NCBI GenBank assembly: GCA_021816935.1
Contig: JAKAWR010000001.1
Location: forward strand, 186,001-250,000
Length of the DNA: 64,000 nucleotides
Origin: Actinomycetes bacterium
GTDB taxonomy: Bacteria; Actinomycetota; Acidimicrobiia; Acidimicrobiales; JAMCPL01
Direction of reading: 5' to 3'
Position 1 is the stretch's first letter. Every line of letters begins with the position of its first letter. The notes under the pieces were generated by a model. It searched no databases. It was not told where the DNA came from and saw only the letters and a program-made list of their open reading frames with translations. A program made the position numbers and the translations under genes. Shown here piece after piece: positions 6,268-21,658 of this stretch.

Positions 6268-6957
6268 TCAGCCTCCCCCTTGCGCCGACATCGGCCCATC
6301 GACGATCCTTGCCAGCACCCAAAGCAGATCCGACAGCCGGTTCAGGTACCGGATCCCGTACGACGTACGCTGTTCCTTGCCGTCGCCTCCGGCACCGATC
6401 CCCGGATCTGCCACCGACCCTGGGCTTCCTCGCGATAGAGCCGGCTCTCCCCCTTCGCCGAGGCGGCCGGCTGCGACGACATAACGCTCAGCCCTTCTCG
6501 CTGCCGCCCTCGCCGCATCGAGCAATGCTCCGCCGAGGCTTCCTCCCGGCACCGCAAAGCCCCGATCGACAACCAGACCCGCTCCCAACGCCTCGATCCG
6601 CTCCTCCAATGCCTCGACCATGGCGGCAGTAACGGCAGTCTTGCCAGGCTCCAGCCGGGAGCGATTCGTTCCGGCCGACACCTCGGCCATTAGAATCCAG
6701 AGGTCACGCTCAACCCGTACGAGCAGAGCGTCGAATCGGGGAACCTCTCTCGTTTCGACGGACGCCTGTGCCTCCCCGAAGTCCTTCCCAAGGTAGGCCC
6801 TCGCCACGCCGATTGCCGCCTGCGCCTCGTCAACGGCACCAACGGCCTTGATCCCGGCACTGTCCTTTGTCACACGCCCCCCGAACAGCACGCCAGTCGT
6901 CCCGTCGTCACCCTTTCTTGTCGTGATGCGCACCGCGGCCTCGGACGGTCTCTTCAT
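6268..6957 (-). CDS. PduO-type cob(I)yrinic acid a,c-diamide adenosyltransferase
   Basis: VRITTRKGDDGTTGVLFGGRVTKDS...GAVDEAQAAIGVARA and C-terminal IRYLNRLSDLLWVLAR. Start set at MKRPSEAAVRI. Confidence 0.9.
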   Translation of the reverse strand: MKRPSEAAVRITTRKGDDGTTGVLFGGRVTKDSAGIKAVGAVDEAQAAIGVARAYLGKDFGEAQASVETREVPRFDALLVRVERDLWILMAEVSAGTNRSRLEPGKTAVTAAMVEALEERIEALGAGLVVDRGFAVPGGSLGGALLDAARAAARRAERYVVAAGRLGEGGEPALSRGSPGSVADPGIGAGGDGKEQRTSYGIRYLNRLSDLLWVLARIVDGPMSAQGGG

Positions 6958-7080
6958 CGCCACGATCTTAACGTGCATCCACGACGCCGCTGCGTAACTC
7001 GAGCAGCTGGAATCCACCCAGGTGGCCTCCTGGGACGACCACGCGGGATGCCGATACCGAGCGCTCGGCACAACTTACCC

Positions 7081-7338: not shown

Positions 7339-10300
7339 ATGGGACCCGCTCCAACGTCCGCCAGCCGGAGGAATGCTGCCGGCGTTATGTACGCGCGGGA
7401 CGTTGAGACCACATCGTCAACCGCAGTACAGGTCGAATCGCTGGATTACCCGGAGGGGGGAACAGAATATCTCGATGCGGCAGCCAATCGACTGCTGATC
7501 TTTGACGGCGCTACGGGAACGAACCTTCAGCTCCTCGGCCTGACACCGGAAGACTTCGGAGGAAGGGACCTGGATGGCTGCAACGAGATGCTCTGCCTGT
7601 CCAAGCCGGAAGTTATCCACGATCTCCACGAGCGTTTCTTTGCGGCCGGATCGAGGGTTGTCGAAACCGATACCTTTGGAGCCAACGAGATCGTCCTCTC
7701 CGAATACGGCATCTCCGGCCGAGCCAGGGATATCAACCTCGCGGCTGCTCGGATTGCCCGGAGCGCTGCTGACGCGGCGACGGCTCGAGAAAGAGCGTCT
7801 ACGCACGGGCGCTTCCCTGCTCGCCGCTTCGTTGCCGGATCGATGGGCCCCGGAACCAAATCACCAAGTCTTGGACAGACCACCTACGCCATCCTCCGAT
7901 GCATGTACCAGGCTCAAGCGGAAGCACTCATCGAGGGCGGCGTCGACGTACTGCTCGTAGAGACGATTTTCGACATCCTCCAGGCGAAGGCCGCCATCGA
8001 GGGCACTCGGCGCGCCATGCTCGCCCTCGGTCTGAGGCTCCCGATCCAGGTCCAGGTCACGATCGAGTCAACCGGGAGGATGCTCGCTGGCACGGAGATA
8101 TCCGCCGCTCTCACGTCCCTATCCGCACTAACCCCGGACATCATCGGCATGAACTGCGCCACAGGACCCCAGGAGATGGGCGAGCATGTCCGCTACCTTT
8201 CCCGCTACTCCAGATATCCGATCTCGGTTCAACCCAATGCCGGCCTTCCCTCCGTCGTGGACGGCCGGATGCACTACGACCTCACGCCCGAGGACCTGGC
8301 CTCGCACCTTCATCGCTTCGTGACCGAGTATGGCGTCTCCATCGTCGGCGGCTGCTGCGGAACGACACCCGAACACATCGAGGCGGTCGTTGCGAGGCTT
8401 GCCGATGTTCACCCGGCATCCCGGAGCCCACAGCCGGAGCCGGGCATCTCGTCCCTCTTTGCCCACGTGCCCTATCGCCAGGAGACCTCTTTTCTCGTCA
8501 TCGGGGAACGTGCGAACGCCAATGGCTCCAAGCGCTTCAGGGACGCAGTACTCGCGGCGGATCACGATCTGGCCGCCTCAATCGCCAGGGAGCAGGAGCG
8601 TGGCGGAGCGCACGTACTCGACGTGTGCGTCGACTACACCGGTCGAGACGGTACTGCAGATATCCAGGCGGTCGTGTCGAGACTTGCGTCCCGGGCAACC
8701 GCTCCGTTGATGATCGATACAACCGAGGCAAACGTTGCCAAGACCGCCCTGGAACTGCTCGGCTCCAAGCCAATCCTGAACTCGGTGAACCTCGAAGACG
8801 GTGACGCTCGCGGCACGCGCCTCGACCTGTTCCTGTCCCTTGCACGCGACTACGGGGCAGCAGTGGTGGCAACCTGCATCGACTCCGAGGGCCAGGCACG
8901 TAACGCCGCCTGGAAGCTTCGCGCGGCAAGGTCCATCAGCTCACTGGCTACCGGTCGTTACGGCCTCGACCCTCACGACGTCTTGGTAGACCCACTCGTA
9001 CTTCCCATCACCACCGGAATGGAGGAGTCCCGCAGGGACGGTCTGGAGACCATCGAGGCCATTCGCCTGATCAAGGAGGCGCTTCCTGACGCGTCAACCG
9101 TAATCGGCCTGTCCAACATTTCCTTCGGACTTACACCCGGCGTGCGCCCCATCCTCAACTCGGTTTTCCTCCACGAGTGCATCGAAGCAGGACTCGACGC
9201 CGCCATCCTCCATGCCGGCAACATCTCCCCGCTGAGCCGCATTCCTGAAGAGGCTGTCACAGCCGCACTTGATCTTGTCTACGACCGGCGCAGGCCCGGC
9301 TACGACCCTCTAGAAGCGCTGATGCTCCTCGATCCCGGCTCGGTTCCGTCGCCCGCGGAACAGGCTGAGGACCGCTCCTCCTGGCCGGTAGAGCGCCGCC
9401 TCTCCCAACGCATAGTCGATGGTGACCGCAACGGCATCGAGGGCGACCTGGACGCGGCTATGGACGGTGGCTTCGACCCGCTCGCAATCATCAACGACCA
9501 TCTTCTCGCAGGCATGAAGGTAGTCGGTGAGCTGTTCGGTTCGGGCAGGATGCAGCTACCCTACGTCCTCCAGTCTGCCGAGACCATGAAGGCGGCGGTG
9601 GCCTACCTCGAGACTCGCATGGACAGGGACGCCGGGTCGCAGCGGGGCACAATTGTGCTTGCGACCGTAAAGGGCGACGTTCACGATATCGGCAAGAACC
9701 TCGTCGACATCATCATGACCAACAACGGTTACAAGGTGGTAAACCTCGGAACGAAGGTAGGGCTGTCGCAGATGCTGGACGCGTTCGAAGAGCACGGGGC
9801 CGACGCTATCGGTATGAGCGGTTTGCTCGTAAAGTCAACCATCGTAATGCGAGATAGCCTCGTCGAGCTCAACGAACGCTCTCTTGCCGCCATCCCCGTG
9901 ATCCTCGGTGGGGCAGCCTTGACACGCGGTTACGTGGAGAGGGACCTCCGGGAGGTCTATGAAGGCCGCGTCTTCTATGGAAAGGACGCGTTCGAGGGCC
10001 TATCGGTGATGGATCGCCTCATGTCGCTCAAGAGATCCGAAGTCGACGATCCCGCCTTCGGACGGGAACAGAGCGCAGCACGATCGTCATCGAGACGCCG
10101 CCTGGCTCCGGGAGGAGAGGATCCAGCCCTCGCGGCGTCCGGCGGGAACACGGGGACAGCCGCGACCCTGCCCTCCCGTTCCCCGGAGGTCATATCCACT
10201 AACCCCGTTTTCCCGCCCCCGTTCACGGGCTCCCGGATCGCCAAAGGCATTCCCCTCGATGAGATAGTCCCGTACCTGAACAAGACTGCCCTCTACCGCA

Positions 10301-10998
10301 ATCAATGGGGCTTCCGGCCGGACAAGGAATCGGCGGAAACCGATTCCCGGTTCAAGGAGCGGATTGACCACGTGCTGCGCTCCGAGCTTACACTCGCGCG
10401 CGAGAAGGACCTCCTCGTGCCACAGGTCGCATGGGGATATTTTCCGGCCGCCTCTGAAGCTGACGACGTCGTGATCTACTCCGACGACAAGCGCCGTGAG
10501 GAGCGGCAGAGGTTCCGCTTTCCCCGCCAACAGGAACCGCCGTACCTGTGCATCGCGGATTTCTTCCGACCCGTGGACTGTGGTGAAACCGACTGGGCAG
10601 CGTTCCAGCTCGTAACCATGGGCAACCAGGTAACGCTCGAGGCGGGCCGCCTTTTTGAGGCTAACGAGTACGGGGCATACGTGCGCCTGCACGGCCTCGG
10701 GGTCGAGCTCACCGAGGCTCTGGCCGAATACTGGCACAAGCGCATCCGCCAGGAATGGGGCTTCGGGGTGGAGGACGGAGGCAGCGTAGCCGATCTTTTC
10801 AGGCAGCGCCACCGTGGGGGCCGGTATTCCTGGGGCTACCCGGCCTGCCCCGACCTGACGGACAACGAAAAGGCCTACAACCTTCTAGAAGGAGCCCGGA
10901 TCGGTGTCGAGCTGACAGAAACCTTCCAGTTCGTACCCGAACAGTCCACCATCGCCATCATCTGCCACCACCCCCAGGCGAAGTATTTCGTTGCCTGA
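7339..10998 (+). CDS. metH: Cobalamin-dependent methionine synthase (all four modules)
   Basis: N-terminal Hcy module ([11 protein letters not shown]...[11 protein letters not shown]), pterin module, B12 motif [28 protein letters not shown], reactivation domain [20 protein letters not shown]. Confidence 0.97.
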   Translation: [1219 protein letters not shown]

Positions 10999-13813: not shown

Positions 13814-15547
13814 TCAGGATACTTCACTCGTGCTCGAGCTCCCTCTCGCCGCGTATCCTTCGCGGGCATGATAGCTGGACCGAGCGAGCGGGGCCGCGGC
13901 AACATGGGAGAATCCCATGCCATATCCCGCAGAGGCGATATGGCCGAACTCCTCCGGCTCCCACCACCGGACCACGGCAACTTTCGATCGAGACGGTCTG
14001 AGGTACTGCCCGACGGTCAGCATGGTGGCACCGGCCGCGCGAATGTCCTCCATAGCCTGCATGAGCTCGCCGTAGGTCTCTCCCAGACCGACCATGAGCC
14101 CGGACTTCACGACCAACCCCGCCTGTGCCGCCCTGGCGAGCACGGCCAGGCTCCGAGCGTAGCCTGCCTGTGGCCTGACAGCGCGCTGGAGGCGTGCCAC
14201 GGTTTCAAGGTTGTGGTTCAGCACGTCCGGGAGGGCTGCGAACACAGTATCGAGTGCCCTCCGGTCGCCCTTGAGATCCGAAATGAGAAGCTCAACGACG
14301 GCCCTGGGTGCTACAAGCCGGACCTGCTTGACGACCTCCGCCATCGCACCGGCACCACCGTCCACAAGATCGTCTCTCGCTACGGTGGTCACCACTACAT
14401 GGCCGAGCCCCATTGCCCTTACAGCCCGGGCCACCCGCGAAGGTTCGTCGGGGTCCTGAGCCAGCGGCCTCCGGGTATCGACCAAGCAGAAGCCGCAATT
14501 GCGGGTGCAGCGGTCACCGTTCATCATGAATGTTGCGGTACCGGCGGAGTAGCATTCGAAAATGTTGGGGCAGCCTGCCTCCTCGCAGACTGTCACGATC
14601 CCGCTTCCACTTAGGTGCGCCTTTAGCCCCGCGAAAGCCGGACCCATGGACGCCTTCGGCCGCATCCATGGCGGCTTCCGCGAAACCGGTGCCGCTAACG
14701 GTATACGCCCCTGTACCGGCGAGACGTCATGCGCAGCGACTGGCCCAAGAGCTTCCGCGGATAGGGATCTCGGAAGGAGTGGCGCTTCGCCACTCCTTCC
14801 TTTCGCCATCCCACCGGACCGAGACCGGTCGTGGCTGCGCCGCTCGCCCTCATTCGCCGTCCCACCGGACTGCGTCAGCGGCCAGCCCACGGAGGCAAAA
14901 TCAACCCCGCCGCAGCCCCATATCCCTCCAGCCTCCTCTGATACCGCTGAAACAATTTCCGCCATCGACGCCTGCGAGCCCTCGCTCCTGACCGATGTCA
15001 TCTCAACCCCCTCGATTCCACATGGCATGATCGGCTCGAACCGGACGAGGTCGGTACTCACGTTAAGTGCGAACCCGTGGAGCGTCCTGCCCCGCTGGAG
15101 TCTTGTACCCACAGAACAGATCTTGCGAGGGGCGCTACCGGCGACCCAGACCCCGTGAAGCCCCGCACGACGCTGCGCGTCAATTCCCAGCCGCCCGAGT
15201 ACCCTGATCACCAGCTGCTCGATATTGGCAGTGTGATCGGCGACACCATAGTCGCGCCCCACTTGAACGATCGGATAACCTACCAACTGGCCCGGCCCGT
15301 GGTAGGTGACATCGCCACCCCTGTCCACGCGTAGGAGCCCTCCCTCGAGCTCCGAAACGCCCACGAGAACGTTCGAAGGTGCTCCGTGACGACCGGTCGT
15401 ATAAACGTGCGGATGCTCCATGAGAAGCAGGTAATCCGACGCAGACCTGCGGGCGACGGCCCTCTGCAACCACAGCGCCTCCTCGTAGCGAACCCTGCCA
15501 AGCCATCTGGCGTGCAGCACCGCCTCACAGCTCCGACTGGAAATCAT
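13814..15547 (-). CDS. lipBA: Fused octanoyltransferase (LipB) - lipoyl synthase (LipA)
   Basis: LipB: RGGDVTYHGPGQLVGYPIV, RKICSVGTR, LHGFALNVSTDL, MPCGIEG. LipA: CEEAGCPNIFEC, CTRNCGFC, TVGQYLRPS, ARSSYHARE. There is no stop codon between the two parts. Confidence 0.92.
   Translation of the reverse strand: MISSRSCEAVLHARWLGRVRYEEALWLQRAVARRSASDYLLLMEHPHVYTTGRHGAPSNVLVGVSELEGGLLRVDRGGDVTYHGPGQLVGYPIVQVGRDYGVADHTANIEQLVIRVLGRLGIDAQRRAGLHGVWVAGSAPRKICSVGTRLQRGRTLHGFALNVSTDLVRFEPIMPCGIEGVEMTSVRSEGSQASMAEIVSAVSEEAGGIWGCGGVDFASVGWPLTQSGGTANEGERRSHDRSRSGGMAKGRSGEAPLLPRSLSAEALGPVAAHDVSPVQGRIPLAAPVSRKPPWMRPKASMGPAFAGLKAHLSGSGIVTVCEEAGCPNIFECYSAGTATFMMNGDRCTRNCGFCLVDTRRPLAQDPDEPSRVARAVRAMGLGHVVVTTVARDDLVDGGAGAMAEVVKQVRLVAPRAVVELLISDLKGDRRALDTVFAALPDVLNHNLETVARLQRAVRPQAGYARSLAVLARAAQAGLVVKSGLMVGLGETYGELMQAMEDIRAAGATMLTVGQYLRPSRSKVAVVRWWEPEEFGHIASAGYGMGFSHVAAAPLARSSYHAREGYAARGSSSTSEVS
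14749..14770 (+). repeat. Copy of ~22-bp dispersed repeat inside the lipBA linker
   Basis: GAGCTTCCGCGGATAGGGATCT, 19/22 identical to GAGCCTCAGCGGATAGGGACCT. Confidence 0.6.
14772..14800. repeat. Perfect 13-bp inverted repeat with 3-nt loop in lipBA linker
   Basis: GGAAGGAGTGGCG-CTT-CGCCACTCCTTCC. Confidence 0.85.
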
Positions 15548-18651: not shown

Positions 18652-19719
18652 TCAGACTTCTGCCACACCCGCACTTTCGAAGGTGGCCATCTCGCAGAGA
18701 AGTCGTGCGGCCGCCCCCACGATCGGCACCGCCAACGCAGCGCCCGTTCCCTCGCCCAACCGCATCGACAGGTCCAGCAACGGCCTCAGCCCCAACGACC
18801 GCAATGCCGCACGCGCACCGGGTTCGACGGACAGGTGCCCGGCAATACAGTAACCCCCTGCCGCTGGGCAGATCGAGGCGGCCACAAGCGCCCCCGCGGC
18901 CGCGATCACCCCGTCGATCAGTACCGGAACTCGCCTCGACGCGGCGCCGATCACAAGACCCGCTATCCCGGCTATCTCCAGACCCCCGAGCTGTCCAAGC
19001 ACCGAGAGCCCATCACTTCGCACCATCCCCGCCGACGTCGCGCGCGACAACGCCTTTCGTACAACCTCTAGCTTCCGGGAGAACGTATCGTCATCAATCC
19101 CCGTGCCTCGCCCGGTCACCTCCGCCACGTCCGAACCGGTGAGCACCGCTATCACCGCTGCCGACGGCGTCGTGTTGCCTATGCCCATGTCCCCAGTAAC
19201 CAGCAGATCCGCGCCCCCACCGGTAAGCTCGTGAGCCACCGCGACGCCGGCGTCGAGGGCGACCGAGGCTTCCTCCCTGGACATTGCCTGCTCCCGTGCA
19301 ATGTTGCCCGTTCCGTTCCTGACTCGTGCCTTCACCACGTCGACCTCGCCCGGCAGGTCCGTAGCCATTCCGATGTCGACAACCTTCACCGAAGCACCGA
19401 CCGTCCGCGCTATCACGTTGATGGCCGCGCCACCTCTGGCAAAGTTCCGGACCATCTGACCCGTGACCTCCTGAGGCCAAGGCGAGACTCCCTCGGCAAG
19501 AACACCGTGATCCGACGCGAAAACCACCACCCACGGCGTTACAGGAACGGGCGGCGGGCACCGTCCAGCGATGGCCGACAGCTGGTTGCCGACTTCCTCG
19601 AGCATGCCCAGCGCTCCCGGCGGCTTCGTCAGGCTTAGCTGCCGCCTGGCCGCCTCAGCTCGTGCCTCCTCGTCGACGGGGACCACCTCACGGCCTGCCG
19701 ATTCGTACCTCTGCATCAC
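18652..19719 (-). CDS. cobT: Nicotinate-nucleotide--dimethylbenzimidazole phosphoribosyltransferase
   Basis: LTKPPGALGMLEEVGNQLSAI, FASDHGV, GDMGIGNTTPSAAV, and C-terminal LRPLLDLSMRLGEGTGAALAVPIVGAAARLL. Confidence 0.96.
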   Translation of the reverse strand: MMQRYESAGREVVPVDEEARAEAARRQLSLTKPPGALGMLEEVGNQLSAIAGRCPPPVPVTPWVVVFASDHGVLAEGVSPWPQEVTGQMVRNFARGGAAINVIARTVGASVKVVDIGMATDLPGEVDVVKARVRNGTGNIAREQAMSREEASVALDAGVAVAHELTGGGADLLVTGDMGIGNTTPSAAVIAVLTGSDVAEVTGRGTGIDDDTFSRKLEVVRKALSRATSAGMVRSDGLSVLGQLGGLEIAGIAGLVIGAASRRVPVLIDGVIAAAGALVAASICPAAGGYCIAGHLSVEPGARAALRSLGLRPLLDLSMRLGEGTGAALAVPIVGAAARLLCEMATFESAGVAEV

Positions 19720-21308
19720 TTTGCTCCTTTTCCAGCGGCAGCTTTACGCAGCACTGCCGACGCGTGGCCGTTCATTCCAGTCCCCTGCAACGCCGGCACC
19801 GCCGCCGTCTCTTCAAGACCGGTATCCGCTTGTGTCACGCTCCCCGTCACTCCGACCTGCCTACTACTGGCAGAATGCACCCTCCGCACCAAACTCATCC
19901 CTCCTGCAGCTACAGCGAAAACCGAGGCCGCCACAGCCATTGCAACCGGAAGGGACAGGCTTGACTGAGCGAAAATGCCTCGCGCCAGCGGGCCCGTGTA
20001 AAGTGGCGACGCGCTTGTCAGGATGCCCGCAAGGGATCCGGCCAGGAACCCGCTAATCGCCGGCCAGCCGACCCCCCTCGTCACGATCGAGGTCGAGACA
20101 TCCGGCGAGTAGATCACCGCAAGATCGGCTGTGGACGGCCTGCCGCTAGGCCACGCCCATGCGGCAACGAACACACCGGCCCACGCCGCAAGCCCGACGC
20201 CGAGGATCAAGATAAACGAGGTGAACGGAGTGAGAAAGTTTCTTGCAATGAACAATACGTATATAGATCCGGCAAGCATTATCGCAGCATCGATCAGTAC
20301 GCTCCTCGACCGGCGCATCCGCACGCGAAGGTTCAGCAGGTTCATGCCCGAAGAGTACAGCCCCAGGTCTGCCTGAACCACCATCCCAGCTGCCGCCGTC
20401 AGCAGGTACGGCACCGCCATCCAGCCTGGCAGCGCATGCCGGATGGCATCGACGGGATTAGGCGACGAAGCCAAGCTGGCATCCCTCGACCCTGCCAGTA
20501 CGCCTGCGAAAAGCAACAGGACCATCGGAACCGACGCACCCGCCACGCCGGCAAGAAACACCCGGCGCCTGCCCGCCACAGCGGTCGTATACCGGCTGTA
20601 ATCCGCTGCGGCATTCGACCAGCTGAGCCCCGTCGATGCCACCACAATCGACATAGCAGGAAGCACCGCCCCGAGGAACGAACCTCCCCTTGCCGTAGCG
20701 ACCTGATGCCACCCAGCGCCCCGAACAAGCTCGCCCGCCACCAGGCAGGTAAGTCCTCCCAGTATCCAGCTTCCCCACCGCTGCACTACCACGAGAGTCG
20801 CCTGGCCGAGAAGGCCGAAGGCTACCGACATGCCGCCTACCACCGCAAGCGACACCAGGCCGCTGGCAACTCCTCCCAGGTGCGCCACCATCTGAAGAAC
20901 GCCCATCACGGCCAAAGTTCCCGTGATGACGGCAAGCGTCTCCCAGCCGGCAAGCGATACCCAGCTCACGAAACCCGGCACCAGATTCCCGCGCAACCCG
21001 AAGACGCGGCGCGACAGCGTCATCATAGGAGCCCTGCCCAACAGCCCCGCCACCGACAGAACCCCCACGAGCGCAAACGACGCCACGGTGCCACCCACCA
21101 CCACCACCACCATCTCGAACAGGCTGAGCCGGAAGGTATAGACGATGCCGCCGATAATCACATCGAGCACCCCGACGTTCGCAGCAAACCAGACCCAGAA
21201 AAGGTCACGCGCCGTACCGCTGCACTGATCCTCGCCAAGCACATTGATGCCGTTCGTCTCCACCCGCCACGGTACGTTGGAACCCGGATCGTCGGGCAAT
21301 TCGTGCAT
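19716..21308 (-). CDS. NCS1-family (cytosine/purine/thiamine-type) permease, candidate B12-pathway transporter
   Basis: About 12 hydrophobic segments; GLRGNLVPGFVSWVSLAGWETLAVITGT and STGLSWSNAAADYSRY are CodB/NCS1-like. 3' end overlaps the cobT start (translational coupling). Start set at MHELPDD. Confidence 0.8.
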   Translation of the reverse strand: MHELPDDPGSNVPWRVETNGINVLGEDQCSGTARDLFWVWFAANVGVLDVIIGGIVYTFRLSLFEMVVVVVGGTVASFALVGVLSVAGLLGRAPMMTLSRRVFGLRGNLVPGFVSWVSLAGWETLAVITGTLAVMGVLQMVAHLGGVASGLVSLAVVGGMSVAFGLLGQATLVVVQRWGSWILGGLTCLVAGELVRGAGWHQVATARGGSFLGAVLPAMSIVVASTGLSWSNAAADYSRYTTAVAGRRRVFLAGVAGASVPMVLLLFAGVLAGSRDASLASSPNPVDAIRHALPGWMAVPYLLTAAAGMVVQADLGLYSSGMNLLNLRVRMRRSRSVLIDAAIMLAGSIYVLFIARNFLTPFTSFILILGVGLAAWAGVFVAAWAWPSGRPSTADLAVIYSPDVSTSIVTRGVGWPAISGFLAGSLAGILTSASPLYTGPLARGIFAQSSLSLPVAMAVAASVFAVAAGGMSLVRRVHSASSRQVGVTGSVTQADTGLEETAAVPALQGTGMNGHASAVLRKAAAGKGAK

Positions 21309-21329
21309 GAGAAGACCTCCGCTTCCTAG

Positions 21330-21600
21330 CGGTCGTTGCCACGACCGCCAACCAGGACAAGGCCGGTCTCCTGACTGAGGATCAACGCCCTCCATCGCCT
21401 TCCCGGCCAGCGCTCAGGCGCTCGGCCAGTGGCCAGCTGCGGCGAGGACGGTCAGTTCACCTGAGCCGGCCTGCCCGCAGGATGGGTGGCTACCCTTTCA
21501 CAGTGGCGGGTCCGTGCCGGATTCACACCGGCTTCCCGATTCTCCATTTCCGGCCCGGCTGCTGCTCGCGCGGGAAATGGCACCTTGTCGTTGTAACAGG
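21330..21600 (-). promoter_or_regulatory. Cobalamin (B12) riboswitch
   Basis: Minus strand: GGGAAGCCGGTGTGAATCCGGCACGGACCCGCCACTGTGA core (+ strand about 21490-21540), and B12-box-like CAGTCAGGAGACCGGCC (+ strand about 21355-21375), followed by a GCGGTCGT-GGCA-ACGACCGC hairpin before the permease start. Confidence 0.93.
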
Positions 21601-21605
21601 ATGGC

Positions 21606-21634
21606 ATTATACACTGCTCGCAACCCCTACGCAA
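21606..21634 (-). promoter_or_regulatory. Promoter driving the riboswitch (TTGCGT-N17-TATAAT)
   Basis: Minus-strand TATAAT at 21606-21611, 17-bp spacer, TTGCGT at 21629-21634. Confidence 0.65.
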
Positions 21635-21658
21635 CAGTTCGCCTCGCCCGCTGAGGCT

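Follow-up and report, generated by a model that had tools for sequence, protein, structure and literature searches.

Introduction

Among the described systems closest to the locus studied here is the CblT-CblS pair of Firmicutes, in which a riboswitch-controlled transporter is accompanied by CblS, an enzyme that forms alpha-ribazole phosphate without CobT (PMC6461909, PMC9600662). The present locus is similar in that a transporter under riboswitch control would supply nucleotide-loop assembly, and different in that this transporter is an NCS1 permease whose partner is CobT or, in a sister genus, a ribokinase-like PfkB kinase. To our knowledge, CblT and CblS are unrelated to any of these three proteins. 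The permease shares its fold and its NCS1 family membership with CodB (cytosine) and Mhp1 (hydantoin), although it differs from both in lying under a B12 riboswitch. CytX, the hydroxymethylpyrimidine (HMP) transporter found under TPP riboswitches, offers another parallel: it, too, is an NCS1 permease whose riboswitch senses the very vitamin for which it presumably imports a precursor, although the vitamin is a different one. Related NCS1 proteins (33–45% identical) are also paired with PfkB kinases in GntR-ADP-ribosylglycohydrolase-NCS1-PfkB cassettes, which differ from the present locus in having a third enzyme and no cobT. In the literature searched, we found no named transporter for the free-base lower ligand of B12 and nothing relevant on the ADP-ribosylglycohydrolase-NCS1-PfkB cassette, and the open-access literature searched contained no report of a B12-regulated NCS1 permease.

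Operon structure and regulation

The window, i.e., the whole stretch of 64,000 nucleotides that was analysed, corresponds to positions 186001–250000 of contig 3 in a 2.32-Mb assembly of 18 contigs (85.5% complete). On its minus strand, the Cobalamin riboswitch, the NCS1 permease gene, and cobT follow one another in the 5' to 3' direction, and two B12-related genes lie elsewhere in the window:

21606–21634, minus strand: promoter-like element TTGCGT-N17-TATAAT
21344–21602, minus strand: Cobalamin riboswitch aptamer (RF00174), with orthologous riboswitches 5' of NCS1 in L035, L036, L037 (= L004), L038, and L039
21329–21348, minus strand: P13-like hairpin GCGGUCGU-GGCA-ACGACCGC, 100% paired in 6 sequences
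21316–21321, minus strand: Shine-Dalgarno sequence GGAGGU, 7 nt before ATG 21308, with GCGGAGGU invariant in six clade-A leaders
19716–21308, minus strand: NCS1 permease, proposed lower-ligand importer (PF02133; AlphaFold model; tree position)
18652–19719, minus strand: cobT, overlapping the permease stop
7339–10998, plus strand: metH, B12-dependent methionine synthase, a B12 user (PF02574, PF00809, PF02607, PF02310, and PF02965)
6268–7071, minus strand: PduO-type cobalamin adenosyltransferase (PF01923, 129.1 bits)

An earlier note, made from the sequence alone, had described a cobalamin riboswitch with its own promoter ahead of a permease gene overlapping cobT, as well as the B12-related genes metH and a PduO-type adenosyltransferase, and nearly all of this description was borne out. 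The aptamer matched the full RF00174 model with 98.9 bits (cut-off, 31.5; E 1.7e-23), the permease matched PF02133 with 119.7 bits (cut-off, 23.5), and CobT matched TIGR03160 with 425.8 bits (cut-off, 319.3). Regarding the promoter, the −10 element TATAAT (21606–21611) is a perfect match and lies 17 nt from the −35 element TTGCGT, but the latter is weak (three of six positions matched) and the promoter scan reported no site.

In the six clade-A leaders (clades are defined below), an 8-bp hairpin with constant GUGGCAAC is placed between the aptamer and the constant GCGGAGGU. All 48 of its 48 cells were paired, four of the eight pairs had changed on both sides, and its covariation score exceeded those of all 500 shuffles and all slides. 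As read from the sequence, GUGGC of the hairpin is complementary to GCCAC of aptamer loop L5, giving a possible kissing loop; an L13 able to pair with L5, as expected of an RF00174 expression platform, is thus present. The L13 hairpin and the adjoining Shine-Dalgarno sequence would be in keeping with a kissing-loop switch that turns translation off. A longer permease ORF (559 codons, ATG 21395) begins within the aptamer, and ATG 21308, 7 nt after GGAGGT, is likely the better start. At the other end of the gene, the cobT start overlaps the permease stop and is preceded by AAGGAG, and the two genes are likely translationally coupled.

The only other Cobalamin riboswitch of the genome was observed on contig 11 (180567–182650; L033 1501–1683 and L002 28–1628), upstream of a gene for a CbpB-family radical SAM enzyme (TIGR04163, 642 bits against a cut-off of 375). 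The stop codon of this gene is directly followed, in frame, by approximately 46 codons that lack a start codon and resemble the N-terminal end of CobT (50% identical over 40 residues); they may be read as a remnant or an unusual mini-CobT. Separately, one ORF of the window (13814–15547, minus strand), read by eye, has a lipoyl(octanoyl) transferase-like N-terminus and a lipoate synthase-like C-terminus, an apparent LipB-LipA fusion.

Cobamide genes and lower-ligand supply

The best PDB match of CobT was the Thermus thermophilus CobT structure 1wx1 (E 1.3e-80), and the LGEGTGA motif is retained. The earlier statement that no corrin-ring biosynthesis genes are visible holds within the window but not for the genome, where a block at approximately 151–174 kb of contig 3, outside the window, encodes CobN, a ChlI/D-like protein, CbiA/CobQ-type amidotransferases, CobS, CobO, tetrapyrrole methylases, CbiD, CbiG, and CbiC-CbiX. 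No BluB above the cut-off was found in the window genome (best, 19 bits vs 150), and the same was true of all six genomes of the family, this one included. BzaA, BzaB, and BzaF of the anaerobic bza route are ThiC paralogues; the window genome has only one ThiC and thus gives no sign of that route. The five other family genomes also contain one ThiC each, one of them with an additional 37-residue ThiC fragment. Since the genome combines corrin-ring genes and CobS with a single ThiC and no BluB, an outside base makes sense, and the bacterium looks like a corrinoid producer that needs an outside lower ligand or uses a purine. Because the assembly is 85.5% complete, the missing bluB is no proof of absence; moreover, purinyl cobamides may simply be what a genome with CobT but no BluB makes. 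We also know of no importer in bacteria that use DMB added to cultures, which counts against the need for one.

Family and phylogeny of the permease

The AlphaFold model of the permease (pLDDT 84) has Mhp1 and CodB as its closest PDB folds, which together with the PF02133 match places it in the NCS1 superfamily. A phmmer search of the PDB with the single permease sequence gave no match, whereas a profile search did recover Mhp1. Its best NCBIfam match was CytX (TIGR02358), at 56.6 bits against a cut-off of 309.9, and its scores were well under both the CytX and ncs1 cut-offs. Compared with the CodB residues given in PMC9379551, the permease retains the stacking Trp108 of TM3 but has Leu at the position of Gln105 and Gly at that of Phe204, with a Trp three residues on. 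The sodium-site pair Thr278/Thr279 is replaced by Val311/Gln312, so that these Na2-site residues of CodB are not retained, and the permeases of the sister genomes have Glu at the position of Thr279; the protein may not be sodium-coupled. With Gln105 and Phe204 replaced, the permease does not qualify as a CodB-type cytosine permease, and Escherichia coli CodB and AllW are both remote from it in the NCS1 tree. The note had named clustering with characterised cytosine, allantoin, or thiamine clades as a refuting outcome; the tree showed no clustering with CodB, AllW, or the NCS1 permeases under TPP riboswitches. The latter form a separate clade (support, 98) and, of the groups whose regulon is known, stand nearest to the permease. 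By tree position, pocket residues, and scores, the protein falls outside the cytosine, allantoin, and TPP-linked NCS1 groups. In three loci of the TPP-linked clade (L047, L048, and L050), the TPP riboswitch lies directly 5' of the permease gene, in one case near a ThiG-like gene; these permeases are candidate thiamine-precursor importers.

Conservation was examined with a scan of GTDB genomes that used an alignment of three relatives and two peptide patterns and yielded at least 27 loci, plus a search of the class. A Cobalamin riboswitch directly upstream of an NCS1 gene was present in the window and in L035, L036, L037 (= L004), L038, L039, L044, L045, L052, and L009; thus, the pairing is not unique to this genome. 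These loci form two clades of the NCS1 tree, each with a support of 99 (L049 counted with clade B). Clade A comprises the window and five genomes of one sister genus of the same family, and clade B comprises L044, L045, L052, L009, and L049. The last of these has a tight NCS1-cobU-cobS-cobT operon, with cobU above the equivalog cut-off, a cobS ORF at 8038–8889, and CobS and CobT of the genome confirmed by profile. No Cobalamin riboswitch was found upstream of NCS1 in L049 or L053, even at E 5. Linkage of NCS1 to nucleotide-loop genes was accordingly seen twice, to cobT in the window and to cobU-cobS-cobT in L049. Three of the four clade-B genomes with the riboswitch-NCS1 pair contain BluB, so import would not be needed there, which counts against base import. 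In five genomes (L068/L097, L067/L099, L070/L100, L065/L101, and L071/L098), CobT and BluB matches adjoin in a common open frame of approximately 600 codons; these are probable CobT-BluB fusions, judging from the reading frames.

Relatives without a B12 link were found in GntR-ADP-ribosylglycohydrolase-NCS1-PfkB cassettes of Thermogemmatispora, Paraburkholderia, and a Plesiomonas plasmid, and a Limosilactobacillus plasmid carries an ADP-ribosylglycohydrolase gene with an NCS1-PfkB pair. No Cobalamin riboswitch was seen in the three Thermogemmatispora loci, which were the cassettes covered by the scan. Because these relatives lack a B12 link, the ancestor of the permease probably had a different substrate, and the B12-linked clades look as if such a transporter of ribosides or bases had been recruited for the salvage of cobamides. 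The plasmid-borne cassettes are those of Plesiomonas, Limosilactobacillus, and Paraburkholderia (L142, L143, and L144), two of the three with a GntR regulator. Permease and PfkB kinase were also observed fused in a single ORF (L054 5992–8424, L056 1604–4165, and L057 1860–3709).

Exchange of partner genes

In the five genomes of the sister genus, the riboswitch and an NCS1 gene (product 55% identical to the window permease) are followed by a PfkB kinase gene in place of cobT. Neither CobT nor BluB is present in any of the five, and CobS and CbiC were each found in four; the completeness of these genomes is 93, 92, 91, 77, and 67%. Conversely, CobT is present in all five riboswitch-NCS1 genomes without an adjacent PfkB gene, and a search of these five for an orthologue of the sister-genus kinase gave only remote PfkB proteins. 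A kinase elsewhere in the window genome was likewise rejected (best match, 21.7 bits). In its fold, the kinase comes closest to ribokinase; adenosine kinase also appeared among the matches, and the fold does not separate ribose from riboside substrates. Alpha-ribazole 5'-phosphate would be the product both of CobT from a base and of a kinase from alpha-ribazole, the kinase route being described for Firmicutes (PMC6461909). This convergence of the two locus types argues more strongly than any other point that lower-ligand material is what the permease handles. The sister-genus genomes belong to one lineage, and in an independent-pairs test, approximately 2.8 of 4 pairs on supported branches went in the expected direction (p 0.25); with relatedness taken into account, the switch between CobT and kinase does not reach significance. 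As 12 of the 86 CobS-bearing genomes of the class have no CobT, loss of CobT alone is not rare.

Discussion

The operon is real, conserved, and functionally coherent, with lower-ligand material as the putative substrate of its permease. We consider it moderately probable that the locus is a B12-repressed lower-ligand salvage operon in which the permease is a base importer feeding CobT; for this reading, we infer the substrate, the direction of transport, the repression by B12, and the coupling ion. When cobamide is scarce, the riboswitch would leave the Shine-Dalgarno sequence open, and permease and CobT would be co-produced via translational coupling. The base brought in by the permease would most likely be 5,6-dimethylbenzimidazole (DMB) or a related benzimidazole, CobT would convert it to alpha-ribazole 5'-phosphate, and CobS would attach this product to the genome's own corrinoid. 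When cobamide is plentiful, the L5–L13 kissing loop beside the ribosome site would turn the operon off.

The earlier note had proposed import of a benzimidazole-type base, which is partly supported: the missing BluB, the single ThiC, and the pairing with cobT agree with it. Since the sister genomes exchange cobT for a PfkB kinase, however, alpha-ribazole has to be weighed seriously as another possible substrate of the permease family. The permease would then import this riboside rather than the free base, the kinase of the sister genus would phosphorylate it, and the window bacterium would use another route or run CobT in parallel. Five genomes without CobT and BluB, most of them with CobS and CbiC, and the ribokinase-like fold of their kinase speak for riboside import, as does the finding that alpha-ribazole is dissolved in seawater and has been proposed as a salvage substrate (PMC9296465). 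Against it, the window genome has no kinase orthologue, its permease is paired with the base-using CobT, and the NCS1 pockets solved to date contain bases or hydantoins, and for the window we regard it as fairly unlikely. A DMB-type base beside CobT, and probably a riboside beside the kinase, would be the best reading of the gene neighbourhoods. We tentatively extend this, with less confidence than we place in base import at the window, to one B12-riboswitch NCS1 clade of lower-ligand importers with exchangeable partners, in which CobT would go with the free base and the ribokinase-like PfkB with alpha-ribazole, making CobT dispensable.

Functions unrelated to the lower ligand seem unlikely even when taken together. 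The permease might instead serve the uptake of a thiamine precursor (HMP, as CytX does) or of ordinary nucleobases, its B12 riboswitch having been acquired for some unconnected reason, in keeping with CytX as its best, if far too low, NCBIfam match and with the TPP-linked clade as its nearest group with a known regulon; however, that clade is separate, and the linkage to cobT and to cobU-cobS-cobT and the two B12-riboswitch clades would be left unexplained, which makes this improbable. Import of nucleosides as a bypass for an idle B12-dependent ribonucleotide reductase, modelled on other B12 riboswitches that control B12-independent isozymes and suggested by the likeness of the ADP-ribosylglycohydrolase cassettes to nucleoside salvage, is highly improbable, as it explains neither the cobT overlap nor the L049 operon.

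DMB is a weak base with a pKa near 6. Many of the relatives apparently come from acid environments, and it may be speculated that DMB would be charged outside the cell there and would hardly diffuse in. The locus and its relatives provide a short gene list with a natural contrast, CobT versus kinase as the partner, which makes lower-ligand uptake a question that can be tested in the laboratory. If the reading with exchangeable partners is true, the permease family would include the first dedicated importer for a B12 base, and the kinase-bearing loci would add a second route to the alpha-ribazole salvage already described for CblT-CblS. Lower-ligand import, if true, would also allow the bacteria that trade parts of B12 to be better predicted.
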